A DNA stretch of 47,463 nt from the NCBI GenBank assembly GCA_035533075.1, contig DATLUO010000114.1, positions 1-47,463 on the forward strand. The letters are read 5' to 3'. Positions 2,564-46,478 of the stretch are shown here, piece by piece. The notes below the pieces were generated by a model that saw nothing but the letters and a program-made list of their open reading frames with translations, made no database searches and was not told where the DNA came from. This DNA comes from Pirellulales bacterium (GTDB lineage Bacteria > Planctomycetota > Planctomycetia > Pirellulales > JAICIG01). How positions within the stretch are numbered: the first letter of the stretch is position 1; each line of letters begins with the position of its first letter. The position numbers were made by a program, and so were the translations under genes.

Positions 2564-2603
2564 CGTAGGGTAGGGCAAGCGAGCTTGCGAGCGCTGGCCC
2601 ACC
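2564..2603. repeat. family D palindromic repeat, single unit
   Basis: Copy of the family D unit (consensus starts GTAGGGTGGGACCAGCGAGC and ends CGCCGGCCCACC). It lies just upstream of the M24 peptidase start and is open in the same frame as that gene. Other D units are at 5740, 14508, 14630, 26739, 26788, 37054 and 38345. Confidence 0.75.
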
Positions 2604-2717
2604 GTCAGCGATTCTGGCCCTCATGGTAGCAGCAACCACGCGGGTAAGTGAGGGCCCACTATGGCGAGATCAACCTCCGAAAAAAACTGCGGTGGCTGGG
2701 GCAGAGACTGGCCCGTT

Positions 2718-3016: not shown

Positions 3017-3181
3017 GTTGTTCTACACAAGCAGCCGCGTAGCGGCGACAGAGCGCGTGGTGCGATACCTCTGTCACCGCTACGCGGCTTGCCTAATCTA
3101 CCGCATCGGTACCGTGGGCTCGCGCCCACGGCTAAACTATCTCGCCGCTACGCGGCTGACGCGCGAGACGTGTAGAACAAC
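3017..3181. repeat. family B element with 12-bp terminal inverted repeats
   Basis: 165-bp element bounded by GTTGTTCTACAC and GTGTAGAACAAC. It contains internal palindromes built on GCCGCGTAGCGGCGA and on CCGTGGGC/GCCCACGG. A second copy in the opposite orientation starts at 23843 and lacks its far end. The element is non-coding. The stretch from 2519 to 3378 holds no gene, only repeats. Confidence 0.75.
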
Positions 3182-3228
3182 GGTGGCTTGCCCCGGTGGC
3201 GTGGGATTTCCCGACGGAACAAAATCTC

Positions 3229-5739: not shown

Positions 5740-5782
5740 GTAGGGTGGGCCGGCGCTCGCAAGCTCGCTGGTCCCACCCTAC
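5740..5782. repeat. family D palindromic repeat
   Basis: A GTAGGGTGGG end and a CCCACCCTAC end enclose CCGGCGCTCGCAAGCTCGC. It is located between the HNH gene end and the trmB start. Confidence 0.75.
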
Positions 5783-9273: not shown

Positions 9274-10119
9274 ATGTTTGCCCCGAATGAGTATCAACTG
9301 CTCGATTTTGGCGAGGGGCGAAAGCTCGAGCGATTCGGGGCGGTCGTGCTCGACCGCCCCGCGCCCGCCGCGACAGGACCGATCCAAGACAGCGAACGAT
9401 GGGCGGCGGCCACGGCCCGGTACGAGCGGACCACGGGCAATCGCGGCGCGTGGCGGGCCGTCGTTGCCGCGTCGCAACTGCCGGTAGGTTGGTCCGTTCG
9501 CCACGGCGGCACCGTGCTGGAGTTGAAGCTGACGCCGTTCGGTCACCTGGGCGTCTTTCCGGAACAGGCCGCCAACTGGGACTGGATTGCCGAACGGGTC
9601 GCCGCCGCCGGACGTGGAATACGGGTATTGAACCTGTTCGCCTATACCGGGGCCAGCACACTGGCGGCGGCCGGCGCGGGAGCCGAAGTGGTGCATGTCG
9701 ATGCCGCCCGTAACATTCTGGCCTGGGCACGGCGGAATGCTGAACTTTCCGGCCTCGGCGGGGCGCCGGTCCGTTGGATTTGCGAAGACGCGGTCACCTT
9801 TGTGCGGCGCGAACTGAAACGCGGCAATCCGTATCATGCCGTGATTCTCGATCCGCCCAGTTACGGGCACGGAGCGAAGGGCGACGTCTGGAAGCTGGCG
9901 GAGCACTTGCCGTCGCTCTTGGCCGACTGTGCCCGGTTGACGGCATCGAACCGGTCGTTTGTATTGCTCTCTTGCCACACGCCGGGCTTTGGGCCGGAAG
10001 CCTTGGCAGCGATGCTTGCTGATGCGTTCGACGGCGACGACATGGAATCGGCTGAGATGCGGGTGACCGCGCTGAGTGGCCGCGTGCTGGTCAGCGGAGC
10101 CATGGCACGCTCACGGTAG
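9274..10119 (+). CDS. class I SAM-dependent methyltransferase, RlmI/RlmK-like
   Basis: 281 residues. The AdoMet site is LNLFAYTGASTLAAAGAGAE (motif I) with VHVDAARNILAWARRNAE following. The catalytic-loop motif is DPPSYG, which with the FPEQAANWDWI lead-in resembles the C-terminal half of the rRNA cytosine-C5 methyltransferases RlmI/RlmK (COG1092). The N-terminal PUA domain of RlmI is absent, so it is a short form and the RNA substrate is uncertain. The ATG at 9274 sits immediately after a family A repeat, with no recognisable ribosome binding site. Its TAG stop is formed by the first bases of the family C element at 10116. Confidence 0.82.
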   Translation: MFAPNEYQLLDFGEGRKLERFGAVVLDRPAPAATGPIQDSERWAAATARYERTTGNRGAWRAVVAASQLPVGWSVRHGGTVLELKLTPFGHLGVFPEQAANWDWIAERVAAAGRGIRVLNLFAYTGASTLAAAGAGAEVVHVDAARNILAWARRNAELSGLGGAPVRWICEDAVTFVRRELKRGNPYHAVILDPPSYGHGAKGDVWKLAEHLPSLLADCARLTASNRSFVLLSCHTPGFGPEALAAMLADAFDGDDMESAEMRVTALSGRVLVSGAMARSR

Positions 10120-10225
10120 CCCGTTTGCTCCGCAAGCGGAAGCCGATTCCGCTGCCGCTCGATCTTTCGATAAGGACAATCGAACTTGCTAGAAAGCCGT
10201 TCCGCTCACGGAGTCAACGGGCTAC
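10116..10225. repeat. family C element between convergent genes
   Basis: 110 bp with terminal inverted repeats GTAGCCCG...CGGGCTAC and subterminal CTCCGCAAGCGGAA / TTCCGCTCACGGAG. The left GTAG contains the TAG stop of the methyltransferase. The right end contains, on the minus strand, the TAG stop of the SGNH-like gene. It probably serves as a two-way terminator hairpin. Confidence 0.8.
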
Positions 10226-11400
10226 CTCACCTCATGTCGGCGGCCGGCGGCGAGGCCCGGCACCGTCGATGGGGCGGCCGGTCGCGAGTCGGATGAGGCC
10301 AACCAGCCGCGCAGCGCGTCTTGGCCCAACTTGACCGAAAGCCGCTCCGCGGCGTCGGCCAACAGATGCTGCCCGTCCGCAAAATCGGCGTCGTTGCACC
10401 AATGGCTGGCGTCGAAAACCTGGGCATCGTACTCGCGGCCCAGCTCCCACAGATAGCGGCTGATTCTCTGCTGGGCAAGCGTAACCTCGGCGTCGCGCAG
10501 CTCCTCCGCTTCGGGCATCAGCAACAACGCCGCGACAATTCCCTCTTGCCGACAGAGTGCCAGGATCTGCCGCAACGCGCGATTGGGACGGTCGCTCACC
10601 TCAAAGTCCCGATAACCGGGCGCGTAGATCTGTCGCACCAGTTTGGCCCTGGCTTGTCGCATTGCCGCGTCGGGCCTGGGCCACGCACCAGGCACCCAGC
10701 CCGACGGCGTCGTTTGATCGAGGGCGGAAGTGTCGGAAACTGCCGGGGCGGGCAACCAATGGGGCATAACACGCCTCAGCAACTCGCCACGAAGCCGGTA
10801 GCATGCCGCGGCGCGGTAGCCCAGCCAATCACGCCCGGATGCCAGTGGGGCGTCCAGGTAGTCGCGGAGGAGCCACAAGTCACGCGCGTCGCAGCGCTCG
10901 ATCGGCGGGATGTGTGCGCCCATCAACTCCGGCGCCGTCTTCAGCAAAGCAGGGTGAACTTCGATGACCACCCATCGCGGCCGAATGCCGGCGGCGAGCA
11001 ATCGTTGGAAGTACAGCAGTTCGTAGAGCGGGCCGCCGCCCAGGATGCCGAAGTTGTAAACCAAGGGCGTCTCGGCGGTGGCGGCGTCGAACAACCGGTC
11101 GGGCCGAACTCCGTAGGCCGTCCGCGAGCTGCCCAACAGGAGCAACAGGGGGCGTTGCGGAAGCTGGCGAAGCTGGGTCTTCAAGAGCGCCAGTTTACGG
11201 CCATATTCCGGCTCGCGCAGGCCGGGTTCGATAAAGTCGGCGGCGAAGTTCGCGGCCAATTGAAAGGCGACGAACGCGACGAGCGCGCACGCCAGCTCAG
11301 TCCTTCCGCGGCGCCCTGATTTTGGATTTTGGATTTTGGGTTTTGGATTCCGACAATCCAAAATCCAAAATCGAAAATCCAAAATCATGCTGGCAACCAT
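10222..11400 (-). CDS. SGNH/GDSL-like hydrolase, membrane-anchored
   Basis: About 392 residues. One transmembrane helix (ACALVAFVAFQLAANFAA, about 35-52) is followed by an outward-facing domain with a serine motif (LLLLLGSSRTAYGVRPD) and a late DASHW...DGQHLL segment suited to an Asp/His pair. This is the arrangement seen in SGNH esterases of the AlgX/AlgJ or DUF1574 type that acylate or deacylate polysaccharides. The start is odd: the only in-frame ATGs (11400, 11388) lie in or beside a family G repeat, so residues 5-28 are repeat-encoded. It follows cpaE by 43 bases and may be the last gene of the pilus operon. Its stop lies in the family C element. Confidence 0.7.
   Translation of the reverse strand: MVASMILDFRFWILDCRNPKPKIQNPKSGRRGRTELACALVAFVAFQLAANFAADFIEPGLREPEYGRKLALLKTQLRQLPQRPLLLLLGSSRTAYGVRPDRLFDAATAETPLVYNFGILGGGPLYELLYFQRLLAAGIRPRWVVIEVHPALLKTAPELMGAHIPPIERCDARDLWLLRDYLDAPLASGRDWLGYRAAACYRLRGELLRRVMPHWLPAPAVSDTSALDQTTPSGWVPGAWPRPDAAMRQARAKLVRQIYAPGYRDFEVSDRPNRALRQILALCRQEGIVAALLLMPEAEELRDAEVTLAQQRISRYLWELGREYDAQVFDASHWCNDADFADGQHLLADAAERLSVKLGQDALRGWLASSDSRPAAPSTVPGLAAGRRHEVR
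11318..11387. repeat. family G palindrome inside the 5' end of a gene
   Basis: Repeated GATTTTGGATTTTGG units form one arm, followed by a complementary series of AATCCAAAATC units. It encodes the N-terminal residues of the SGNH-like protein and includes the possible ATG at 11388. Confidence 0.75.
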
Positions 11401-11443: not shown

Positions 11444-12664
11444 CTACTTTCCGCCGCTCTTGGCGCCTTTCGACAAAAAACCCAGAAGTCGCCCTTTTCC
11501 AGGCTTAACAAGCTCGTCTTCGGGCGGGGGCTTGTGGCCCGACAACGCGTCGGAGAGTCCGACGATCGCCTGCGTAATCGAGGCCTTGGCGGCCTGTTCC
11601 ACCAGCGGCACGCCGTTGTTGCGCATTTCGACCATCGTGCGATAGTCGTTGGGCAACTGCCAGAAGATTTCGCGGCCGATCGTGTCTTGGGCCTTTTTCA
11701 GGCTGATGTTGCCGGCGTCGAGTCCCATGCGGTTGACGATGATCTTGACCTTCTCGGCCACGCCCTTCATGTTGCCGAACGACATCATCAGCCGCACGAC
11801 GTTGCGCAAGCAGGGCAGATCGAGCTGGGTCACCAGCAAGATGTGATCGGCCGCCTGCAAGGCCACCAGGTCGAGCGCGTTGTAGCTCTTGGAGAGGTCG
11901 AGCACCAGGTGCGTGAAGGTCGCCTTGAGCAGGCCGAGCACGCGCTGCAAGTCGTCGGGCGAAATCAGCGACATGTCTTCCATTTGCACCGGCCGCGGCA
12001 GCAGGAACAGCCCCGACGAGTGCTTGGTCAACGACCGCTTCAACAGGGCGAAGTCGAGTCGCGTGACGTTCTGGGCCACGTCGACCAGCGTGTAGTCGGG
12101 AATCGTGTCGAGGAACACGTCGGCGTCGCCCAAGCACAGGTCGAGATCGACCAGGGCCACGGTGTTCTGCGGATCGCGGGCCAAGGCGCAGCCCAGGTTG
12201 ACGGCGATGCTGGTCGTGCCCACGCCGCCCGTGGCGCCGGAGACGGCAATCACCGTGCTGCCGCGGGCCTTGGTCTCGCCGCGGCCGAAGCGGCGGTCGG
12301 AGACGCGGTCCAAGGCGTCGAGCAGGTCTTGCAGCCGCAGGGGATGATTGAGGAACTCCTTGGCCCCGGCACGCATGGCCCGCAGGATCAGCTTGCCGTC
12401 GGTCGAGCCGCTGACGATCAGAATGCTGCAATCGGGAGAGGTTTCGTTGAGCCGCGTCACCAGATCCAAGGCTTTCTCGACGTCCTGGTCGAGCGAGACG
12501 ATGCCGATGTCGGGGTGCGTCTGGGCCACCACGTCGGCGAAGAACTCGTAGCGCGAGCATTCGGCTTCCAGCCACACGCGGTCCATGCCCAAAAGCATGG
12601 TTTTCAAAGTCTCGCGGGTCTGGTCGTTCGGATCGGCGATCGCCAATCGAAGTACGTTGCTCAT
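11444..12664 (-). CDS. cpaE: Tad pilus assembly protein CpaE/TadZ
   Basis: 406 residues. It has an N-terminal response-regulator-like receiver domain (about 1-125) and a C-terminal MinD/ParA-type ATPase domain (about 135-370). CpaE/TadZ places the Tad pilus machine at its site in the cell. The Walker A-like motif is SGATGGVGTTSIAVNLG, where the usual signature and catalytic lysines of the MinD family are replaced. This is common in TadZ proteins and suggests weak or no ATP hydrolysis. The receiver domain keeps DIGIVSLDQDVEKAL but lacks a clear phospho-acceptor context. The start ATG is 4 bases after the cpaC stop, indicating coupled translation. Confidence 0.88.
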   Translation of the reverse strand: MSNVLRLAIADPNDQTRETLKTMLLGMDRVWLEAECSRYEFFADVVAQTHPDIGIVSLDQDVEKALDLVTRLNETSPDCSILIVSGSTDGKLILRAMRAGAKEFLNHPLRLQDLLDALDRVSDRRFGRGETKARGSTVIAVSGATGGVGTTSIAVNLGCALARDPQNTVALVDLDLCLGDADVFLDTIPDYTLVDVAQNVTRLDFALLKRSLTKHSSGLFLLPRPVQMEDMSLISPDDLQRVLGLLKATFTHLVLDLSKSYNALDLVALQAADHILLVTQLDLPCLRNVVRLMMSFGNMKGVAEKVKIIVNRMGLDAGNISLKKAQDTIGREIFWQLPNDYRTMVEMRNNGVPLVEQAAKASITQAIVGLSDALSGHKPPPEDELVKPGKGRLLGFLSKGAKSGGK

Positions 12665-14464: not shown

Positions 14465-14507
14465 CCGTGACCTCTCTTACAGACTTTCTCGAACTGAAAT
14501 CCGCGCC

Positions 14508-14668
14508 GTAGGGTGGGAGCGAGCGCGCTTGCGAGCGCCGGCCCACCAAGGTTAGGCGTCAGGCGTCAGGCATCAGGCGTCGGGTTGTTTGCCCTGACGC
14601 CTGACGCCTGAAACCTGACGCCTCAAATGGTGGGCCGGCGCTCGCAAGCTCGCTCGCTCCCACCCTAC
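14508..14668. repeat. composite repeat: family E palindrome nested in two family D units
   Basis: The outer arms are D units in inverted orientation (GTAGGGTGGGAGCGAGCG... and ...CGCTCGCTCCCACCCTAC). Between them, 14553-14626 is a family E palindrome made of GCGTCAGGCGTCAGG units and their complement CCTGACGCCTGACGC. The whole can fold into one long hairpin. It lies between cpaB and cpaC. A weaker copy of the same composite lies at 38246-38384. Confidence 0.8.
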
Positions 14669-14709
14669 GTCGAATCCCGTAGGTTTCACAAAATCCGTTC
14701 ATCGCCATC

Positions 14710-15753: not shown

Positions 15754-15878
15754 GTCGTTACTTTCGGCAGCACGTGAAGAATTCGTGCAAGACGTCTTTC
15801 TGCGCAGGACAAATCCGCATTATTGTTTCCACCGGTCGTTGAACTGTTTCGCTTAGGGTGACTTGGGCGAGAATTCGG

Positions 15879-15959
15879 TAGGCGTCAGGCGTCAGGCATC
15901 AGGGGTCAGGGGCGTCAGGTTGTTTGTCCTGACGCCTGACGCCTGAAACCTGACGCCTC
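15879..15959. repeat. family E palindrome
   Basis: GCGTCAGGCGTCAGGCATC units and the complementary CCTGACGCCTGACGCC units with a short TTGTTTG loop. It lies between cpaA and cpaB. Copies also occur at 14553-14626 and 38292-38340. Confidence 0.8.
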
Positions 15960-20543: not shown

Positions 20544-20552
20544 GAACTCGGC

Positions 20553-20618
20553 CAGCTTCTGCCCCAGCCACCGCTTTTGCTCGCGCGGAAAAATGTCTCA
20601 TTCTCGGCCGCGTGAAGT
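20553..20618. repeat. family A half-element
   Basis: Only the right arm is present: CTGCCCCAGCCACCGCTTTT, then CATTCTCGGCCGCGTGAAGT. It is fused directly to the family H element that starts at 20617, sharing the bases GTAG. Confidence 0.65.
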
Positions 20619-20725
20619 AGAGCTGCGAACGATCTCCAGCGCGCTGGAGATCACCCCCCAGATGGTTCCAGTGGCCTTGCGGATGCCGCCCGCTTGCCGG
20701 GCGGAGGTTCACGTTCGCAGTCTAC
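20617..20725. repeat. family H palindromic element at the pncB stop
   Basis: 109 bp. The left end is GTAGAGCTGCGAACG and the right end, on the complementary strand, is GTAGACTGCGAACG. An internal hairpin is built on GATCTCCAGCGCGCTGGAGATC-type pairing. The right terminal GTAG contains the TAG stop of pncB (minus strand). Confidence 0.65.
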
Positions 20726-22191
20726 TTGAACCCCCGCGCTTCCAGAATCAATTGCTTCCGCAGCTCGTGCAGCCGCGGCTCCAGGCCGGCGGGGTATTCA
20801 TGCGGGTTGTCGAACCGCTTGATGCTGTGCGAGAACCGACCTAGCTCGGCGAGCGTCCGCTCGCGCACCGCCGGCAAGTCGGGCTGCTGGTACACCAACC
20901 GGCCCTGCCGGAAGATCGGCACCAGCAAATCCGCGTGCCGCGCCTCGCCGGGCACGTGCTTGCGGCGCGTGTCGTCGTGCGGATCGACGATCCACGCCTC
21001 GTCGCCGCAGCCAAGTTCCAGGTCGTAAATCAGGTCGCCCAGGCACTCGCCGGCGACCTCGTAACGCCGCACTTGCAAGATGCCCGGCGTCGAGCTCTTG
21101 GCCGCTTGCTCCGAGAGCTTGAGGCAGCGCCGCCATGCGCCGCCGGGCCCTCGGACGGCTGAGAGCTTGTAGACGCCGCCCAGGGCCGGCTCGTCGAAGG
21201 CCGTCACCAGGTGCGTGCCGACGCCCCACACGCCGATCGTCGCCTGCTGCTGCTTGAGACTGGCGATCAGCCGTTCGTCCAGATCGCCGCTGGCCACGAT
21301 GAATGTGTCGTTGAGGCCGGCCGCGTCCAGAATCTTGCGGGCTTCGATACTGAGATAGGCCAGGTCGCCGGAATCGAGCCGCACGCCTTCGAGCTTCTGG
21401 CCCCGCGAGCGGAGCCAGCGGCCGATCTCCACGGCATGCCGCACGCCCGCCAGTGAGTCGTAGGTATCGACCAGGAACACGCAGTTGTTCGGCATGGCCT
21501 CCGCGTAGGCCCGAAAGCTTTCCAGCTCGCTGCCGAACGACATCACCCAACTATGCGCGTGCGTGCCGCGCACGGGGATGCCGAACCAGCGGCCGGCCAG
21601 CACGTTCGAGGTCGCGTCGCAGCCGCCGACGTAGGCGGCACGCGCGGCGGCCAGGGCGCCGTCGATGCCCTGCGCCCGGCGCAGCCCGAATTCGAGCACC
21701 GGGTCGCCCTGCGCCGCCAGGCACACGCGGGCCGCTTTGGTGGCGATCAGCGACTGAAAGTTGACGAAGTTCAGCAAGGCCGACTCGACAAGCTGCGCCT
21801 GCCCGATCGGCCCCTGCACGCGCACCAGCGGCTCGTGCGGAAAGACGATCGTCCCTTCGGGCACGGCATCCACGTCGCAACGGAATTCCCAGTGCCGCAG
21901 CTCGTCGAGAAAAGCGGCCGCAAACAGCGGTTGGCCGTCGGTTCCCGTCAGCGAGCCAAGATAGGCCAGATCGTCGTCATCGAACCGCAGGTGCCTGAGC
22001 CAATCGATCAGGTACGCCAGGCCGCACGCCACGGTGAAGCCGCCATGAAAGGGATGATGGCGAAACTGATGCTGAAACACGGCCTCGCGGTCGGCCGTGC
22101 CCGACTGCCGATAGCCGTAGGCCATCGTCAGCTCATAGAGGTCGGTCAGCAGGGCCAGCGAGGGGCGGTAGAGGCTGGCGAGCGGGTACAT
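20722..22191 (-). CDS. pncB: nicotinate phosphoribosyltransferase
   Basis: 489 residues. It converts nicotinate and PRPP to nicotinate mononucleotide in NAD salvage. Family features in order are LLTDLYELTMAYGY at the N-terminus, VNFQSLIATKAARV, EFGLRRAQGIDGALAAARAA, the phosphohistidine/active-site segment RGTHAHSWVMSFG, DTYDSLAGV, VRLDSGDLAYLS and GVGTHLVTAFDEPALGGVYK. The length is that of the longer bacterial branch, with a C-terminal domain that includes DDTRRKHVPG. The ATG at 22191 fits the family start. The TAG stop lies in a palindromic repeat. Confidence 0.93.
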   Translation of the reverse strand: MYPLASLYRPSLALLTDLYELTMAYGYRQSGTADREAVFQHQFRHHPFHGGFTVACGLAYLIDWLRHLRFDDDDLAYLGSLTGTDGQPLFAAAFLDELRHWEFRCDVDAVPEGTIVFPHEPLVRVQGPIGQAQLVESALLNFVNFQSLIATKAARVCLAAQGDPVLEFGLRRAQGIDGALAAARAAYVGGCDATSNVLAGRWFGIPVRGTHAHSWVMSFGSELESFRAYAEAMPNNCVFLVDTYDSLAGVRHAVEIGRWLRSRGQKLEGVRLDSGDLAYLSIEARKILDAAGLNDTFIVASGDLDERLIASLKQQQATIGVWGVGTHLVTAFDEPALGGVYKLSAVRGPGGAWRRCLKLSEQAAKSSTPGILQVRRYEVAGECLGDLIYDLELGCGDEAWIVDPHDDTRRKHVPGEARHADLLVPIFRQGRLVYQQPDLPAVRERTLAELGRFSHSIKRFDNPHEYPAGLEPRLHELRKQLILEARGFK

Positions 22192-23823: not shown

Positions 23824-23842
23824 AACCCAGGGCGTTACCCTC

Positions 23843-24003
23843 GTTGTTCTACACATCTCGCGCGTCAGCCGCGTAGCGGCGAGATAGTTTAGCCGTGGGC
23901 GCAAGCGGCGCAAGCCCACGGTACCGATGCGGTAGATTAGCCAAGCCGCGTAGCGGCGACAGAGGTATCGCACCACGCCCTCTGTCGCCGCTACGCGGCT
24001 GCG
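23843..24003. repeat. family B element, right end missing
   Basis: Starts with GTTGTTCTACAC and runs as the reverse complement of the copy at 3017-3181, through the GTACCGATGCGGTAGATTAG centre to CGCCGCTACGCGGCTG. The expected closing GTGTAGAACAAC is absent. The end instead joins the 3' end of the secretin-like gene. Confidence 0.7.
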
Positions 24004-26719: not shown

Positions 26720-26855
26720 AGTGAGTTGGTCACGAGGTGTAGGGTGGGACCAGCGAGCTTGCGAGCGCCGGCCCACCACGATTGCCGAAAATGGCGGGCC
26801 GGCGCTCGCAAGCTCGCTGGTCCCACCCTACGGCTATTGCTACGACCAACTCACT
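26720..26855. repeat. paired family D units with outer inverted repeat
   Basis: Two D units face each other (26739-26778 and 26788-26831). They are flanked by AGTGAGTTGGTC and GACCAACTCACT, which pair with each other. The whole folds into a three-part hairpin, between the ART-like gene and the protease gene end. Confidence 0.75.
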
Positions 26856-33508: not shown

Positions 33509-33913
33509 GAGGGATGAGGGATGAGGGATCAACGGCTGAATTGCGAAAGGCAGTTTCGATGCCAAAGCGAGTTGGGCGGCATTCCGGCCGGGATTACGAA
33601 GAAAGCTGACGCTGCGGGCGCGCCAGAATTGTGCGAAAACGCGCGCTTAGCGCGCGGCACGGCCGCGTAGCGTAAGCGTCCTCGCTTGCGCCAGTCGTGG
33701 AACGGAGACGATAGGCGATGCCCGGTTCGACGCACCGGGGCATCGCTTGGCCGCCACGCTCTTGAAGGGCGCCAGCCGCTATCAGGCCAAGCTCTGCCCC
33801 GGCCACCGGCGCGCTGGCTGAAGAATGCGGCAAATGGCTGGCGAAGGCCGGGCCTCGCGAACCGCTTTTCCTCGCCGGCAAAACGTCTCATTCTCGGCCG
33901 CGTGAAGTATCGA
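33509..33913. repeat. repeat-filled intergenic region with a family A element
   Basis: About 33716-33910 is a family A element with GATGCCCGG/CCGGGGCATC and GCCAAGCTCTGCCCCGGCCA arms. It ends in CATTCTCGGCCGCGTGAAGT four bases before the stop-side end of the DUF1501 gene. A GGGATGAGGGATGAGGGATC triplication lies at 33509-33530. No gene is supported. Confidence 0.7.
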
Positions 33914-37053: not shown

Positions 37054-37092
37054 GTAGGGTGGGACCAGCGAGCTTGCGAGCGCCGGCCCACC
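37054..37092. repeat. family D unit
   Basis: Starts GTAGGGTGGGACCAGCGAGC and ends CGCCGGCCCACC. It lies just upstream of, and in frame with, the small membrane protein gene. Confidence 0.75.
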
Positions 37093-37334: not shown

Positions 37335-38249
37335 ATGTCCCAGACCGCCGTCGCCGCCGAGCTTGACCTGACGAAGTTGCTTGCCGGAGCGCAGCTTCCC
37401 GCCCTGCCCCAAAGCGCCATCCAACTGCTGGAGCTGTCGAACGACGAGCGTAACGGCCCGACGCAGTTCGCGGTGCCCATCGAGGCCGATCCAGGGCTGG
37501 CCGGTCAGGTGTTGAAATTCGTCAACTCGGCCTATTTCGGCTTCGCTCGCGAGATTTCGAGCGTCAAGCTGGCGATCACGCTGGTGGGCATGCGCACGAT
37601 CAAGAACTTTACGCTGTGGAGCGCGGTCTTCAGCCTGATGCCGAACCCCAAGTGCGGCATGTTCGACCTGCGCAGCTTGTGGCAAGACTCGCTGCGCCGG
37701 GCGTTGTTCGCTCGAAGCTTCGCCCGGATGCTCGGCATGCGTGAGGCGGAAGAGCCGTTCGCGGCGGCCTTGCTGCAAGACATGGCGGTGCCGCTCTTGG
37801 CCAGGGAGCTTTCCGCGGAATATGCCGAGCTGTTGGCCGACCGGCAGCAAGGCAAGCTGCGATTGTCGCAACTCGAACGCGAACGGTTCGGCTGGACCCA
37901 CGCCCATGCCGCCGCTCAAATGGCCCGGCAGTGGAACCTGCCCGAAGAGTTTGCCACGCTCATCGAGCGTCATACCGAGTTGGACACGCTGTTGTCGGGC
38001 GAAAATGTGCCGCCGGGCGACCTGGCCGTGGCGCTCTCGTCGTTGCTGCCGGCGGCGAGCGACGACACTTGGTGCGAAGTGGGGCAATTCGACGTTTGTT
38101 ACCAACGGTTCTGCCCCGTCGGCGGGCCACGGGCGGTCGAATTTTTGCGGACGATCGACGCGGAGTTCGTGGCCTTCGCCCCGGTGCTCAAAATCACGGC
38201 TCCCGCCCAATCGCTCGAAATGCGGTACGCCGACACGGTCACGTCGTAA
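37335..38249 (+). CDS. HDOD domain protein
   Basis: 304 residues. The HDOD domain covers about residues 15-220: ALPQSAIQLLELSND, ADPGLAGQVLKFVNSAYFGF, and SSVKLAITLVGMRTIKNFTL are its usual markers. Further on, AALLQDMAVPLLAREL and GWTHAHAAAQMARQWNLPEE recall the HD-type helices but without the metal-binding HD pair, so it is not a phosphodiesterase. HDOD proteins act in signalling, often near cyclic-di-GMP or chemotaxis regulators. No EAL, GGDEF or CheY domain is attached here. The TAA stop falls at the edge of a degenerate family D unit. Confidence 0.88.
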   Translation: MSQTAVAAELDLTKLLAGAQLPALPQSAIQLLELSNDERNGPTQFAVPIEADPGLAGQVLKFVNSAYFGFAREISSVKLAITLVGMRTIKNFTLWSAVFSLMPNPKCGMFDLRSLWQDSLRRALFARSFARMLGMREAEEPFAAALLQDMAVPLLARELSAEYAELLADRQQGKLRLSQLERERFGWTHAHAAAQMARQWNLPEEFATLIERHTELDTLLSGENVPPGDLAVALSSLLPAASDDTWCEVGQFDVCYQRFCPVGGPRAVEFLRTIDAEFVAFAPVLKITAPAQSLEMRYADTVTS

Positions 38250-38384
38250 GGTGGCACTGGCAAACTTGCGAGCGCCTGGACATCGATTTGAGGCGTCAGG
38301 TTTCAGGCATCAGGCATCAGGACAAGCAACCTGACGCCTAACGATGGTGGGCCGGCGCTCGCAAGCTGGCTCACTCCCACCCGA
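38246..38384. repeat. D/E/D composite repeat
   Basis: A degenerate left D unit (GTAAGGTGGCACTGGC), a family E palindrome (38292-38340: GGCGTCAGGTTTCAGGC ... AACCTGACGCCTAAC) and a right D unit (GGTGGGCCGGCGCTCGCAAG...CTCCCACCC). Same architecture as 14508-14668. The left terminus contains the TAA stop of the HDOD gene. Confidence 0.7.
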
Positions 38385-38495
38385 CGCCCGGCGCTTTGGC
38401 GGCGGGGGGCATTTGAGCAAACGCTGACGGCGCATAGAATAGCGGTAAAGAGCATGCCCGTCCGAGGCCGTGATTGATGAGGGAGGGAGCGAACC

Positions 38496-40726: not shown

Positions 40727-40870
40727 CGTCCCTATTGTAGCGATGCCGCTTGGGGCGCGACGTCTTTTTGCCGTGCCCGCTTTTTCGGCTGAACGAGGCG
40801 ACCTCGACGGGCGACGACGGCTCGGCTTATACTTTCGGTTACGAAGTACACTGCCAATTCCGACAAACCC

Positions 40871-41755
40871 ATGCCTCATGAAGACATCCGCATCGGCACG
40901 CTGGTCAAGGCCGACCGCAATCCGATCGGTTACATCCGCCAAATCCTGCCCCACGGCTTCGAGAGCTTTCAACTTACCTTCCCCAGCGTGCTGGAAGGGC
41001 CCGATCTCGGGCAACTTGCCGAACAAGTGCGCCGCCTGCTCGACGAACAAGGCACGGCCGTCGTCAGCTCGCTGGGCATCTACGGAAACCCGTTGGTCGA
41101 CGGGCGCGTGGCCGAGGGGTTCGCCGCCTTGATCGACGCCGCCGGGTCGTTTGGCTGCCGGTTGGTGTGCGGCTTTACCGGGCGAATCGTCGGTCGGCCG
41201 GTGCCCGAATCGCTGCCGAAATTCCGCGAAGTCTTCACGCCCTTGGCCAAGCGGGCTGAAGATCGCGGCGTGCGGATCGCCTTCGAGAACTGCGACATGC
41301 ACGGCACCTGGGAAACGGGCGACTGGAACATCGCCCACGCCCCCAGCGCCTGGGAGATGATGTTTCACGAGGTGCCCAGCGACGCGATTGGACTCGAATG
41401 GGAACCGTGCCACCAGATGGTGAGCCTCATCGACCCGCTGCCGCAACTCCGCAATTGGGTGCATAAAGTGTTTCACCTGCATGGAAAAGATGCCAACGTA
41501 CTCTGGGACGTGGTCCGCACCGACGGGATTCGCGGCGGCAAGCCGTATGTCTATCATCGCACGCCGGGCTTCGGCGACACCAACTGGTCCGACGTGATCA
41601 CCATCTTGCGGCAAGCGGGCTTTCGCGGTTCGATCGATATCGAAGGCTGGCACGATCCGGTCTATCGGGACGAGTTGGAAATGACCGGGCAGGTCCGTGC
41701 CTTGCGGTATCTGAAAGAATGTCGCGGCGGCCAGTTCGTGCCGAATCCCTCGTAG
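40871..41755 (+). CDS. sugar phosphate isomerase/epimerase-type TIM barrel
   Basis: 294 residues of the AP-endonuclease 2/xylose-isomerase-like barrel. Metal-site residues are suggested by IAFENCDMHG (Glu), GLEWEPCHQM (Glu/His region), VFHLHGKDAN (His) and GSIDIEGWHDPV (Glu). Proteins of this family isomerise or epimerise sugars or inositols. An inositol substrate would fit the ino1 gene in the window but this is only association. It starts 145 bases from the divergent glpD. Its TAG stop lies in the terminal GTAG of a family C element. Confidence 0.85.
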   Translation: MPHEDIRIGTLVKADRNPIGYIRQILPHGFESFQLTFPSVLEGPDLGQLAEQVRRLLDEQGTAVVSSLGIYGNPLVDGRVAEGFAALIDAAGSFGCRLVCGFTGRIVGRPVPESLPKFREVFTPLAKRAEDRGVRIAFENCDMHGTWETGDWNIAHAPSAWEMMFHEVPSDAIGLEWEPCHQMVSLIDPLPQLRNWVHKVFHLHGKDANVLWDVVRTDGIRGGKPYVYHRTPGFGDTNWSDVITILRQAGFRGSIDIEGWHDPVYRDELEMTGQVRALRYLKECRGGQFVPNPS

Positions 41756-41870
41756 CCCGCTTGTTCCGCAAGCGGAGGGGCGATGCTGACCGTTGACGTC
41801 TTCCCGAAGGAAGACGCCCGAATTTGTCGAGAGCCGTTCCGCTCACGGAGTGCCCGGGCTACGTAGCCCG
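41752..41870. repeat. family C element between convergent genes
   Basis: GTAGCCCGCTTGTTCCGCAA ... TTCCGCTCACGGAGTGCCCG with the terminal CGGGCTAC, followed by a second GTAGCCCGC half-copy to 41870. An internal GTCTTCCCGAAGGAAGAC hairpin is present. The left GTAG holds the TAG stop of the isomerase-like gene. The stop of the large propeller gene begins immediately behind the right end. Confidence 0.8.
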
Positions 41871-44800
41871 CTATGGCGGCAGCGGCTGCGCGCTGAAGAG
41901 ATAGGCCAACAGATCGCGCAGCTCCTGCTCGGTCTTGACGAGTCCCGAGGGCATCGGCGAGATGGTGCTGTGGGCGCGCTGTTCGATGTCGGCTTTCGCG
42001 ACGGTGGCGCGTTTGGCGTCGGGCAACAACAGCTCCAATTGCTCGTCGGTGTCGTTGACCACCAGGCCGCTCAGCGTGCGGCCGTCGGCCAGGGCCAAGG
42101 TTGTGCCGCGAAAAGGATCGGCCACCTGCTTGCTGGGCAGCAGGACCGACTCGACCACGTAGGCCGTGTTAAAGCGGCGGCGGAGGCCGGCCAGGTTTGG
42201 CGCTCCGCCGCCCGGCTGCTCGAGTGTGACGCCGTGACACTTTGTGCAGCCGAGCGAACCGAACAAGGCCCGGCCTCGCTGCGCGTCACCCTCGCTGACC
42301 GCATTGCTCCAGTCGGCCGAAAGCAGTTCCGCCGGCACCTGGTCGCCGCCCGTGGCGGCTTGCTTCAGCCGCTCGGCCAACAGCCCAAAATCGACCTTCT
42401 CAGGCACGCCCGCCACGACGCCCTTGGCCGCGCGGAATCGCACCGTGATGTCGTTCATCGACGGCCGATCGACGCGTATCAAGACGTCGTTGCTTCCCGG
42501 TTGCAACTCGAACGCAGCGCCGTGTGAGGCGATGGCGACCGCTTGGCCGTTATGCCATACCGCGGCCGGGCCGCCGTCGGCAAGCTCGACGACGGCGGGT
42601 TGCCGCGCCGTGCTTTGGAGCTGGAAACAGAGATACAGCCGGCTTGACGGCTGGTCGCTGGAAAAGCTGCTGGTGAACCGTCCCTCGACCGGTTCCACCT
42701 GCTTCCATCCAAGACGCTCTGCTCCGGCCGGATACGTTGCCGACAAATCGATCGGCCCGCGATCGGGCGGCGCGGCCTTTTCCAAAAAGAACGACTCGTC
42801 GCCCGTCGGCCCCAGCAGCCAGGCCCGCTCGACCTTACGCGCGGCATACGTCGCCGCCTGACTTGCCAGCAGGCGACGGCGCGCTTCTGCGATTTGAGGC
42901 CCGGTAGCGGGATCGTTCAGCAAACTCAGGAAAAAAGCCGACTGTTCCACGACGTCGCTGTTTGAGTCGCCGAGAGCAGCCGTGAGCAGATCGAACAGCC
43001 GCCGCTCGTCGTCCGTATGCGGCGCCGACTTCCACCACTCGGCCGTCGTAAAGCTGCCGACGCGCCCCAGGGCCCGCAAATCGACCGGCTTCTCGGCGTC
43101 GGCGAAAGTGAGTCTGAAGGAGGCGTTGCCCGAGTTATAAGACAGCGGCAAACCTTCCGGCGGAGCATAATCCGATGGTGGAACGGTCAAACGGAAGCCG
43201 GCGGCAAGGATTGCGGTGCGCCGATCGGCAGCATCGTCCGACCGCGCCAAGCCGGCCAGTTCTTCATACGTGGCGCGCCGGGCAAGGAGCTTGGCCGCCG
43301 TCTGCCGCAAGTACGTGTCATCGCCGGCCGCCAACCGGGCAATGACGCCGACGGGCAAATCGCCGTCGCGATCGAACAACGCGACCAGTGCGGCAAGCTG
43401 CACGGACGGCTCGGCATCGTCCAGGGCGGCGGTAAACAACTCATCCGGCGCCTCGAGCCGACGGTATTCAGCCAGTGCGCGAAGCGCCTGCCGCCGCAAT
43501 TCGGCATCGCTGTTTTTCGCCAAACCGATCAGCAAGCGGCGGGCGTCGGCCGGGCCGCTGGCGGCGGCCAGCCAGGGAAGATGATATTTGGCCGTGCCCG
43601 ATGGGTCGATGTGTGCCAGCCGCGCCGCGGCTTCGTCGAGCAGGTCGCCGCCGCGGCGAAGCAATTCCTGGTGAGCGGCCGCGCGCCGTTGCCACAGCCC
43701 GTGCGAGAGCTCTTGCCACAGCCTTTCGGCCGAGACGCGGCCGACGTCGATGGGCTGCCACTGGCGGTCGGTTTCTCTGGAATTGGTGACCATCACGAGG
43801 TCGCTGTAGCAATGGGGCGACCCGACGTTGCCGCCCAGGTAAAGCTCGGTGACGAAGAACCGGCCATCCGGGCCGATCGCCGTCGCCACGGGCCGGGCAA
43901 AGCCGCGACCCAGCGTATAGTTGTCTTCTCGCGTCGAAAAGCTCGCGCCGCGGGGAACCAAGGGGCAATTCTGCACCGTCATCTGGTCCCAGCGCGCCAT
44001 CAAGAGGGATCCACCGTAGCCCGCTTGCTCCGCAAGCGGAACCGAGGTTGCCGAGCGGGACGGTGGTTCGTGAGGGAAAGCGTCATCGACGGGAGCGCCC
44101 TTCCGCTCACGGAGTGAGCGGGCTACGTGGCCGTCACGCCACACCAATCCGCAGGGCACGCCGCGTCCCATCGTCGCCGTGAGCGGCTCGACGAGGTCGT
44201 ATCGCCATGGGCTTTTGGAAGCCATCCAGCCGCGCGGCCAGGCGAAGTCGATGTGCGGCGTCACGTGCAACAGCCGGGCAGGCGCATAGAGATCGGCCCG
44301 GCTCTCGTGGTCGTTGTCGTTGGTAAACAGATCCCAGCGCGGGCTGAACGCCAGGCCGACCGGTCCGCGCAGGCCGCCGGCCACCACCTGAACGCGGCTG
44401 CCATCGGGCCGCATCCGCAGCACGGCACCCACGCCGGTGTAGGGTACGCGCTCGCCGTTCGGTCCGCAGTAAAGCGTCCAATGCCCCCAATGATCGGGCC
44501 GGTTCCAGTCGCCATAGTTCAACAGCGGGTCGCCGTGCGTCAGGTAAAGATCGCCTTCCGGCCCCCAGGCCAGGCAATGAAAGCTGACGTGCAGATCGAG
44601 CGGCAGCCCCCATAGGATGCGCCGAGGGTTGACGCCCAGCTCGACGCGCCCGCGCGGCAAAAGATAAAGGGCGTTGTCGGCCAGCACATACAGGTCGTCG
44701 CCGCGGAATTCGACGTCCATGACAATCGAATCCGGCGGCAGACGGCAAACTTGCTGCCGCAGCAAAAAGCCGCCCGGCGCGGGTTCGAAAAGATACACGG

Positions 44801-46478
44801 CCTCGCGCGCGCCGACGAACACACGCCCGGCACTGTCGACTTTGACGCCCAGGTAGGCGTCGTCGCGAGAGCGGTCGACGACCTGGCTGCGTGAGAAGGC
44901 GTCGGCCGGCAGCAGGTTCGGGCCCGGCGGTGGAACCAGACCCTGCTCGCGTGTCTCGCCGGCGACTTGCCGGGCGATGTTTTTCAGCTTGGAACGGTCG
45001 AGCGTGTCGCCCGATGGTTCCGTAAAGACCCACAGCCCAACCGTCTGCTCGTCCGCTTGCGGCGGCCCATCGCCACGATGCGGTCGCTCGCGAACGCCGC
45101 GACTCAATCGCACGTGGGCGATTTCGCCGTTGCAGCCGAGGCCGCCTTCCACAAGCCGGCCGAGGGCCAAACTACCGGGCACGGCCGCTTTGCCCGTCGC
45201 TTCCATCGCCTGGTCGGCCACGACCTCGCCATCGACGAGCAACCGCACGCGCGCCGGCTCGTAGAGCATGGCCACGCCGTGCCACTCGCCGTCGCAGACA
45301 TCTCTGGACGAGCGGACGTGGTCGGGCTTCATGCCGGGCAGATAGGCGGTGAGCGTGCCGCTACCCGCCATCGAAAACAGCTCCCAGTGTGCGCCCGACT
45401 GCTTGGTGTCGTTGGCCACGAGAATGTTGTAGTTGTCGCGCGCGGTCAGCCTGGCCCGACATTCGACGCTCAACGGCGGCTGCCGGTAATCGGCCCTGCC
45501 TTCAGCGATTCGGCCGAGAAACTGCCCGGCTGGCATGGCGGGAAGCTCGCCCACGGTCGTGCGGGGCGTTGGTTTTTCGCGGCGGGGAGATTGGTACTGC
45601 AGTTGAGCGACGAGCCAATCGAGGCCGTCGAGGTTGTCACGCAGCCGTTCTTCGGCGTCATCCTGGGTGTGGCCGAGGATTCCGATGGGGCCGCGGTAGC
45701 CACTGGCGCAAATCGTGCGCAGCAGCGGCAGGTCGATCGCGCCTTGCCCGAGCGGCAGGATCTTTCTGCCGACGTGGTCGCCCTCGCGGTCCATGCCGTT
45801 GAGATTGAGTGCCAGCAAATGCGGCAGCATCTTCTCGAGCAGGGTCACGAAGCGGTCGAGATGATCGTGGCCGTGGTGCAGGTTATAGACGATGCCGACG
45901 TTCGGCATTCCGAGCCGCTGGACGACGGCCAGCTCATTCTCCGGTTCGCCGAACCAGCCGCCGTGGTTATAAAGGGCGACTTTGCAGCCGAGCTTGGCGG
46001 CTTCGTCGGCGATCGGCTTGATCGTCGCGGCGGCCGCGGCGAGCTTCGCGGCCTGATCGCCCTGGGGCGCCGGGTCGCCCATCGTCACCCAGAGCTGGGT
46101 GTGAATGTTGTGGCGGCGCAGGGCTTCGAGAATCGTCCTGGCCTCGTCGTTGAGCGCGGCGGGAAACCAAACGGCGTCGAGCGAAATGTGGTGTTCCTTG
46201 AGCGCCGCGATCTCGCGCTCGAAGGTCGGAAGTTGTTCGGCCCGCCAGTCATAGGCGAACCGTTCGAAACCGAGTCGCTCGAGCATGGCCGCGCGTTCTT
46301 CCGGCGTGCGCTTCGCCCGATCGAACGGCACGATGCACCAGGCGACCAGGTTGTTTCGCGAGAAAAGTTCCGAGCAATTGTCCGCGGCGGCGGCCTGAGT
46401 TTGCATTCCGGCGAGCAGGGCCAGAACGGACAGGAACGGCAGGGACAGTCCAGGTGCGATGCGAAGAAGTGTCGCCAT
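41871..46478 (-). CDS. giant exported multidomain protein: isomerase-like barrel, LamG, beta-propeller, HEAT, cytochrome c
   Basis: 1535 residues. The signal peptide is LPFLSVLALLAGMQTQAAAA. A TIM barrel of the isomerase/epimerase type follows (about 35-310; VALYNHGGWFGEPENELAVV, LHHGHDHLDRF). Next are a LamG domain (about 325-475), a PVC-type dehydrogenase-like beta-propeller (about 510-905), HEAT-like helical repeats (about 930-1130), a further strand-rich domain, and a C-terminal cytochrome c domain with the haem motif CTKCH at about 1410 and the family ending PMPSGLVKTEQELRDLLAYL. Its probable role is periplasmic redox or binding of a carbohydrate. Residues about 784-821 are a family C repeat in frame. 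ATG 46478 suits the signal, and 46511 is an alternative. Confidence 0.85.
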   Translation of the reverse strand: MATLLRIAPGLSLPFLSVLALLAGMQTQAAAADNCSELFSRNNLVAWCIVPFDRAKRTPEERAAMLERLGFERFAYDWRAEQLPTFEREIAALKEHHISLDAVWFPAALNDEARTILEALRRHNIHTQLWVTMGDPAPQGDQAAKLAAAAATIKPIADEAAKLGCKVALYNHGGWFGEPENELAVVQRLGMPNVGIVYNLHHGHDHLDRFVTLLEKMLPHLLALNLNGMDREGDHVGRKILPLGQGAIDLPLLRTICASGYRGPIGILGHTQDDAEERLRDNLDGLDWLVAQLQYQSPRREKPTPRTTVGELPAMPAGQFLGRIAEGRADYRQPPLSVECRARLTARDNYNILVANDTKQSGAHWELFSMAGSGTLTAYLPGMKPDHVRSSRDVCDGEWHGVAMLYEPARVRLLVDGEVVADQAMEATGKAAVPGSLALGRLVEGGLGCNGEIAHVRLSRGVRERPHRGDGPPQADEQTVGLWVFTEPSGDTLDRSKLKNIARQVAGETREQGLVPPPGPNLLPADAFSRSQVVDRSRDDAYLGVKVDSAGRVFVGAREAVYLFEPAPGGFLLRQQVCRLPPDSIVMDVEFRGDDLYVLADNALYLLPRGRVELGVNPRRILWGLPLDLHVSFHCLAWGPEGDLYLTHGDPLLNYGDWNRPDHWGHWTLYCGPNGERVPYTGVGAVLRMRPDGSRVQVVAGGLRGPVGLAFSPRWDLFTNDNDHESRADLYAPARLLHVTPHIDFAWPRGWMASKSPWRYDLVEPLTATMGRGVPCGLVWRDGHVARSLRERKGAPVDDAFPHEPPSRSATSVPLAEQAGYGGSLLMARWDQMTVQNCPLVPRGASFSTREDNYTLGRGFARPVATAIGPDGRFFVTELYLGGNVGSPHCYSDLVMVTNSRETDRQWQPIDVGRVSAERLWQELSHGLWQRRAAAHQELLRRGGDLLDEAAARLAHIDPSGTAKYHLPWLAAASGPADARRLLIGLAKNSDAELRRQALRALAEYRRLEAPDELFTAALDDAEPSVQLAALVALFDRDGDLPVGVIARLAAGDDTYLRQTAAKLLARRATYEELAGLARSDDAADRRTAILAAGFRLTVPPSDYAPPEGLPLSYNSGNASFRLTFADAEKPVDLRALGRVGSFTTAEWWKSAPHTDDERRLFDLLTAALGDSNSDVVEQSAFFLSLLNDPATGPQIAEARRRLLASQAATYAARKVERAWLLGPTGDESFFLEKAAPPDRGPIDLSATYPAGAERLGWKQVEPVEGRFTSSFSSDQPSSRLYLCFQLQSTARQPAVVELADGGPAAVWHNGQAVAIASHGAAFELQPGSNDVLIRVDRPSMNDITVRFRAAKGVVAGVPEKVDFGLLAERLKQAATGGDQVPAELLSADWSNAVSEGDAQRGRALFGSLGCTKCHGVTLEQPGGGAPNLAGLRRRFNTAYVVESVLLPSKQVADPFRGTTLALADGRTLSGLVVNDTDEQLELLLPDAKRATVAKADIEQRAHSTISPMPSGLVKTEQELRDLLAYLFSAQPLPP
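44016..44126. repeat. family C element in frame inside the propeller gene
   Basis: 111 bp, exactly 37 codons, with GTAGCCCGCTTGCTCCGCAA at one end and CTCACGGAGTGAGCGGGCTA at the other. The gene stays open because its frame reads the terminal GTA-GCC rather than the TAG. Flanked by CCAC and GTGG. Confidence 0.85.

Follow-up and report, generated by a model that had tools for sequence, protein, structure and literature searches.

REPINs are said to be single units that comprise two inverted REPs. For REPs carrying a GTAG tag, passages of a 2013 article by Di Nocera et al. report that their termini often supply stop codons to flanking open reading frames, such TAG stops (amber codons) being worded there in the authors' own way, that GTAG REPs are present in the PVC superphylum and that in-frame intragenic copies also occur (PMC3733652). 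Characterised TnpA-REP proteins read GTAG as a guide motif beside a hairpin and cleave at CT or CA (PMC8266576), and both the GTAG guide and a definition of the foot as GT[AG]G have been published (PMC8266576, PMC6006769). The mechanisms of REP dissemination have been called poorly understood (PMC8266576).

Little is understood of the way in which REPs select and open target DNA, and junctions with stop codons constitute a natural record: a coding sequence now finishes at the edge of the element, the protein is not truncated and the native stop is gone. Here we consider such junctions in the window, by which we mean the whole 47,463-nt stretch of DNA from a Pirellulales bacterium that was analysed, and in the genome to which it belongs. 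The stop overlap found here is a further example of the phenomenon described in passages of the 2013 article (PMC3733652), and is not new, since TAG-providing termini of GTAG REPs had been reported there. What is added is that 39 relatives lack family D, that the genes concerned are not truncated, and that complete elements have no native stop behind them (0/17).

GTAG-Tagged REPs and REPINs

The family C, D and H palindromes of the window belong to the GTAG-tagged REPs and REPINs. The 8.54-Mb genome carries, with no more than 3 mismatches allowed, 166 arms of family C and 729 of family D, the reversed-pattern controls yielding 3 and 0, respectively. The family H element gave 55 matches that were mostly partial. 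The majority of the C and D arms lie between called genes. Complete inverted pairs number 74 for D, typically of 96 nt, and 35 for C, typically of 111 nt, and a single D arm folds into a hairpin, at the foot of which GTAG stays unpaired. The tag reads GTAG in 45/47 C copies, and among 93 D tags there are 80 GTAG, 10 GTAA and 1 GTGG. Tandem REP copies adjoin as CTAC followed directly by GTAG, and REPINs have GTAG at both ends.

Family D elements and further repeats in the window are as follows:

2565..2604, + strand: family D REP arm
5744..5782, - strand: family D REP arm
14505..14672, unstranded: family D REPIN with a long segment between its arms
26739..26831, unstranded: complete family D REPIN, 93 nt, off any stop (-92.4 kcal/mol, z -17)
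37054..37092, + strand: single family D REP of canonical REP shape, an unpaired GTAG foot followed by a hairpin
2719-2754, 2763-2850, 3031-3182, 20550-20619, 23842-24002 and 33721-33910: dispersed repeats with no obvious GTAG tag

The last of these include further long dispersed repeats, for example TACTTCACGCGGCCGAGAATGAGACATTTTTCCG and GCGGTGGCTGGGGCAGAG. Units of GGCGTCAGG and CCTGACGCC form palindromic stretches at positions 14528-14624, 15854-15959 and 38286-38338 of the window, and such stretches also follow D arms at other places in the genome.

The preliminary description of this DNA had remarked that families C, D and H share no long sequence and yet all start with GTAG. The tag is the sole thing that they have in common, and it is accounted for as a transposase guide (PMC8266576); unrelated families share it because TnpA-REP/RAYT transposases read GTAG in this way. 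Outside the tag the families differ. Family E REPs (GTAGGGAACGGACTCCGTGCCGTTCC; for example at G000:C81:101498 and C64:17973) nearly always have TCT before them, and CT immediately precedes GTAG in 42/47 copies, which matches the dinucleotide cut by characterised TnpA-REP proteins (PMC8266576). Families C and D have no fixed flank like that of family E, a cytosine (in D also a thymine) being preferred before GTAG.

Genes Ending in Element Termini

Five genes had been claimed to end in the terminal tetranucleotide of an element, and when the sequence was read directly all five coincidences of stop and tag were found at the bases given for them:

9274..10119 (ORF 9178/9274-10119), + strand: class I SAM methyltransferase gene, stop TAG 10117-10119 within GTAG 10116-10119
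10116..10225, unstranded: family C REPIN of two inverted GTAG-REPs, 110 nt (-48.4 kcal/mol, z -4.7)
10222..11259 (ORF opens at 11511), - strand: DUF1574/SGNH-like gene, CTA 10222-10224 within CTAC 10222-10225
20617..20725, unstranded: family H element, from GTAG 20617-20620 to CTAC 20722-20725
20722..22191, - strand: pncB (nicotinate phosphoribosyltransferase), stop in CTAC 20722-20725
37335..38249, + strand: HDOD-domain gene, its stop the TAA of GTAA 38246-38249
38246..38385, unstranded: degenerate family D element with the tag GTAA
40871..41755, + strand: xylose-isomerase-like TIM-barrel gene, its stop the TAG of GTAG 41752-41755
41752..41862, unstranded: family C REPIN, 111 nt

The gene names are backed by Pfam (Methyltrans_SAM, DUF1574, NAPRTase, HDOD and AP_endonuc_2). 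The isomerase-like gene was skipped by the simple gene caller, there being a long ORF on the opposite strand; the glpD match on that strand starts only near 40729, and the isomerase-like gene is therefore real and free-standing. In the 10116..10225 element the TAGs of both ends serve as stops, for two convergent neighbours. Homology of the methyltransferase with a relative extends to the last residue but one, so that this end is native, and the final 22 or so residues of the SGNH-like protein before the element's TAG show no conservation, which suggests that the two ends were probably turned into stops by different routes. The pncB gene is 1 codon shorter than its orthologue in the closest relative, and the HDOD protein is conserved in relatives up to 3 residues or fewer from its end.

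Frequency of Stop Overlap

Genes were called with a codon-usage model in 2.44 Mb of the genome, partly chosen for holding C or D copies irrespective of their position relative to genes, and the distance from each stop to a GTAG in the same sense was measured. Within this sample, 36/154 C and D ends near the end of a same-sense gene coincide exactly, by their TAG, with the gene's stop. Position -4, where the tag's own TAG (TAA in a GTAA tag) serves as the stop, thus holds 36 cases for the two families combined, and every other position between -40 and +30 holds 0 to 5. Random placement, a comparison that the preliminary description had proposed, gave an expectation of 0.8 and a maximum of 7 in 20,000 simulations. 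In the tiling sample alone, which consists of long contigs in consecutive stretches, the overlap was seen in 5/18 cases for C and 14/60 for D, and 31 of the 36 stop-overlapping genes have a coding score of at least 40. The stop overlap is real and highly non-random.

A bias is also seen in the reading frame. Among the genes that read into an element and stop within the next 200 nt, 36/51 do so in the frame of the TAG, where one third would be expected (p ~6e-8); family D shows the bias strongly (24/29) and family C weakly (12/22, p 0.03). Genes ending in GTAG number 189, against 143 expected from the use of TAG and of G as the last base, an excess roughly equal to the count of REP-linked cases. 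An A directly precedes GTAG in 5/24 stop-overlapping D arms as compared with 5/197 others (p 0.002).

Insertion aimed at stop codons, one of the earlier suggestions, is not supported by these data, most arms lying away from stops, with 24/258 D arms and 12/147 C arms touching one; for family E there is 1 stop overlap among 66 arms. The spike would not require such targeting, because survivor selection combined with small target deletions would suffice.

Associated Y1 Transposase Genes

Twelve Y1_Tnp matches were detected in the genome. Among the Y1 (HUH) genes, one is bracketed by C REPINs, one by H arrays, one by E copies and one by F copies, and no transposase gene flanking family D was found among these matches. 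Two proteins of 241-242 aa attain 63-68 bits on the NCBIfam model REP_Tyr_transpos, which has a cut-off of 80 bits, and the F- and H-associated transposases score over the IS200/IS605 model. We infer that the C, D and H elements are mobilised by Y1 transposases of the TnpA-REP/RAYT type.

G000:C26, about 18.9-20.4 kb (L007/L009): H-associated transposase locus

The H-associated transposase is encoded by an open frame of 330 aa with two Y1_Tnp domains, and about 15 family H REPs surround the gene. By inspection, the first domain is without an HUH motif and the second carries HVH, and the protein looks like a single-chain pseudo-dimer.

Fate of the Native Stop Codon

No family D arm was found in 39 relatives at 3 mismatches, and the D insertions are therefore most likely later than the divergence from these relatives, the closest one included. 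The orthologues of 12 genes with REP-derived stops, taken from the closest relative and about 60-88% identical, end 2, 0, -1, 1, 0, 1, 2, 0, -1, 13, 0 and 2 codons further, such that 11/12 end within -1 to +2 codons, with TGA, TAA and TAG stops mixed. In two control gene sets the offsets were mostly 0 with a few outliers. Since the orthologues end at nearly the same place, the REP-stop genes are not appreciably truncated, and simple truncation of gene tails is ruled out by these lengths. One gene (C135) exceeds by 8 codons each of the three homologues with which it was compared (40-71% identical) and may have been extended as far as the element's TAG.

Sequences to the right of complete elements were examined for an in-frame native stop within 3 codons and none was present (0/17), 3 of 20 elements having been excluded, two for an abutting REP and the third because flanking sequence was lacking. 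As none of the 17 is followed by such a stop, the native one either was lost on insertion or is identical with the TAG; an element entering directly before a native stop that is then kept is ruled out by the same result. The earlier notion of elements that restore a stop is in accord with this absence and with the native length of the C-termini. The comparison with orthologues that had been advocated thus supported the native-length ends, and the stop triplets lacked the power to discriminate, TAG occurring in 2/12 orthologues of the overlapping genes and in 4/12 of those of control GTAG genes.

Self-comparison of the genome provided no clean empty site, mainly tandem REP arrays being recovered, together with one diverged paralogue carrying another GTAG sequence. 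In a gene cluster at G000:C65:9001-29000 (L169), paralogous sections have a GTAG sequence at about the same place:

Near 6.5, 8.0 and 10.6 kb of that locus: GTAG sites, two of family D and one like another GTAG repeat

An Intragenic REPIN

One element of the window lies in frame inside a gene:

41871-46478, - strand: gene for a PVC heme-binding CxxCH protein with an internal REPIN
44016..44126, unstranded: family C REPIN, in frame inside this PVC heme-binding (TIGR02604/TIGR02603) gene

The REPIN contributes 37 codons. A paralogue of the gene has 6 more residues beside the REPIN junction, and the matches in the closest relative and in another genome exceed the joined query by about 5 and 7 codons, these surpluses being total match lengths that do not give the position of the extra residues. 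The TIGR02604 match spans 251 residues over 218 profile positions, that is, 33 extra for the 37 codons of the REPIN. This single case suggests that the REPIN replaced about 4-6 native codons when it inserted. The five intragenic C and D elements have lengths that are, without exception, multiples of 3.

Origin of the Stop-Codon Junctions

The explanation that we consider probable is that an element replaces the last bases of a gene, native stop included, and that insertions with the TAG in frame survive. REPs and REPINs would be non-autonomous single-strand elements copied by Y1 transposases of the TnpA-REP/RAYT type, and GTAG would form the exact end of every C, D and H element because the transposase would recognise the hairpin with its unpaired 5' GTAG guide. 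An element landing at the 3' end of a gene would replace the last few bases and the native stop with them; if bases are deleted in this way, any insertion closer than some 15-20 bp to the stop would destroy it, and TAG would rescue one third of the frames. Survival of the gene would require an in-frame TAG from the element (or TAA, where the tag has mutated to GTAA) as the new stop, the remaining frames reading into the element and mostly being lost, and the spike would reflect survivor selection on an element with a stop at its very edge. Both the deletion of the native stop at insertion and the removal of the other frames by selection are thus presumed.

This explanation is based on the spike, the frame bias, the guide-bearing hairpin, the transposase genes flanked by C, E and H copies, the native-length C-termini and the missing native stop. 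Counting against it are the derivation of the target deletion from one intragenic case, the intragenic C and D lengths in multiples of 3, which are also expected from insertion with no net deletion, the A before GTAG in stop-overlapping D arms, which it does not predict, the weak frame bias of family C and the finding of no transposase gene beside D.

In IS608 the target tetranucleotide remains at the left flank, and a GTAG already present in the genome could similarly have been the target, with the element inserting beside it, GTAG gene ends being harmless and the stop being the gene's own. Native gene length and the lack of a native stop behind the element (0/17) are exactly what this predicts, the base before GTAG differs from that at other insertions, and the orthologue stops are compatible with it (TAG in 2/12 as against 4/12 for controls). 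However, biochemistry places GTAG within the element as a guide, with cleavage at CT or CA (PMC8266576), the tags at both ends of REPINs and the tandem joining of CTAC to GTAG imply that the tag is element-borne at at least one end, and the C (in D also T) before GTAG at other sites looks like a junction preference just outside the tag. We judge this origin rather unlikely, even though it accounts for several observations.

Improbable to a greater degree is positive selection, in which a hairpin at the stop would aid the host by attenuating translation, as in E. coli REPs, by stabilising mRNA or by terminating transcription. Published REPs within 15 nt of stops lower translation, the hairpins are very stable, and, relative to intergenic length, D arms are frequent where neighbouring genes are tandem or convergent and scarce where they diverge. 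Yet for such a role any position within about 15 nt would do, while the -4 bin is about 7 times as high as any neighbour, and the genes are functionally mixed (SecA, LysS, FabF, AroC, FabI, XseA and pncB, the names being a reading of the sequences). No T-run was seen by eye behind the hairpins in a limited set of printed element copies. Coincidence of intergenic placement with gene-calling artefacts, for which the selection of sites by eye and the home-made gene caller might speak, can be set aside almost entirely, given 36 overlaps where 0.8 were expected, 31/36 coding scores of at least 40, and conserved genes with orthologues.

Beyond replacement at individual genes, it is a tentative and somewhat doubtful generalisation that RAYT-driven REPs replace a short stretch of target or land on GTAG stops, such that gene 3' ends would be a preferred safe harbour and the TAGs would routinely serve as stops of essential genes.

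Comparison with Known Systems

Like REPINs, the C and D elements pair two inverted REPs, this being known here from sequence and not from movement as a unit. The arrangement of a Y1 HUH gene flanked by GTAG hairpins is that of the TnpA-REP/RAYT REPtrons (PMC8266576, PMC6006769), from which the H-associated protein differs in being IS200/IS605-like in score and in having two Y1 domains per chain. With IS200/IS605 elements such as IS608, the present systems share the logic of a single-strand Y1 transposase and a guide tetranucleotide beside a hairpin; unlike them, the C, D and H elements encode nothing, and the flanking target tetranucleotide is a feature of IS608. There is also a resemblance in form to the GTAG-tagged REPs as described in passages of Di Nocera et al. 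(PMC3733652), which are likewise palindromes with an unpaired GTAG at one end, occur as singles and dimers in many families, lie beside Y1 transposase genes and near gene 3' ends, and supply TAG stops; whereas those passages gave no null expectation, the excess of exact overlaps is here set against one.
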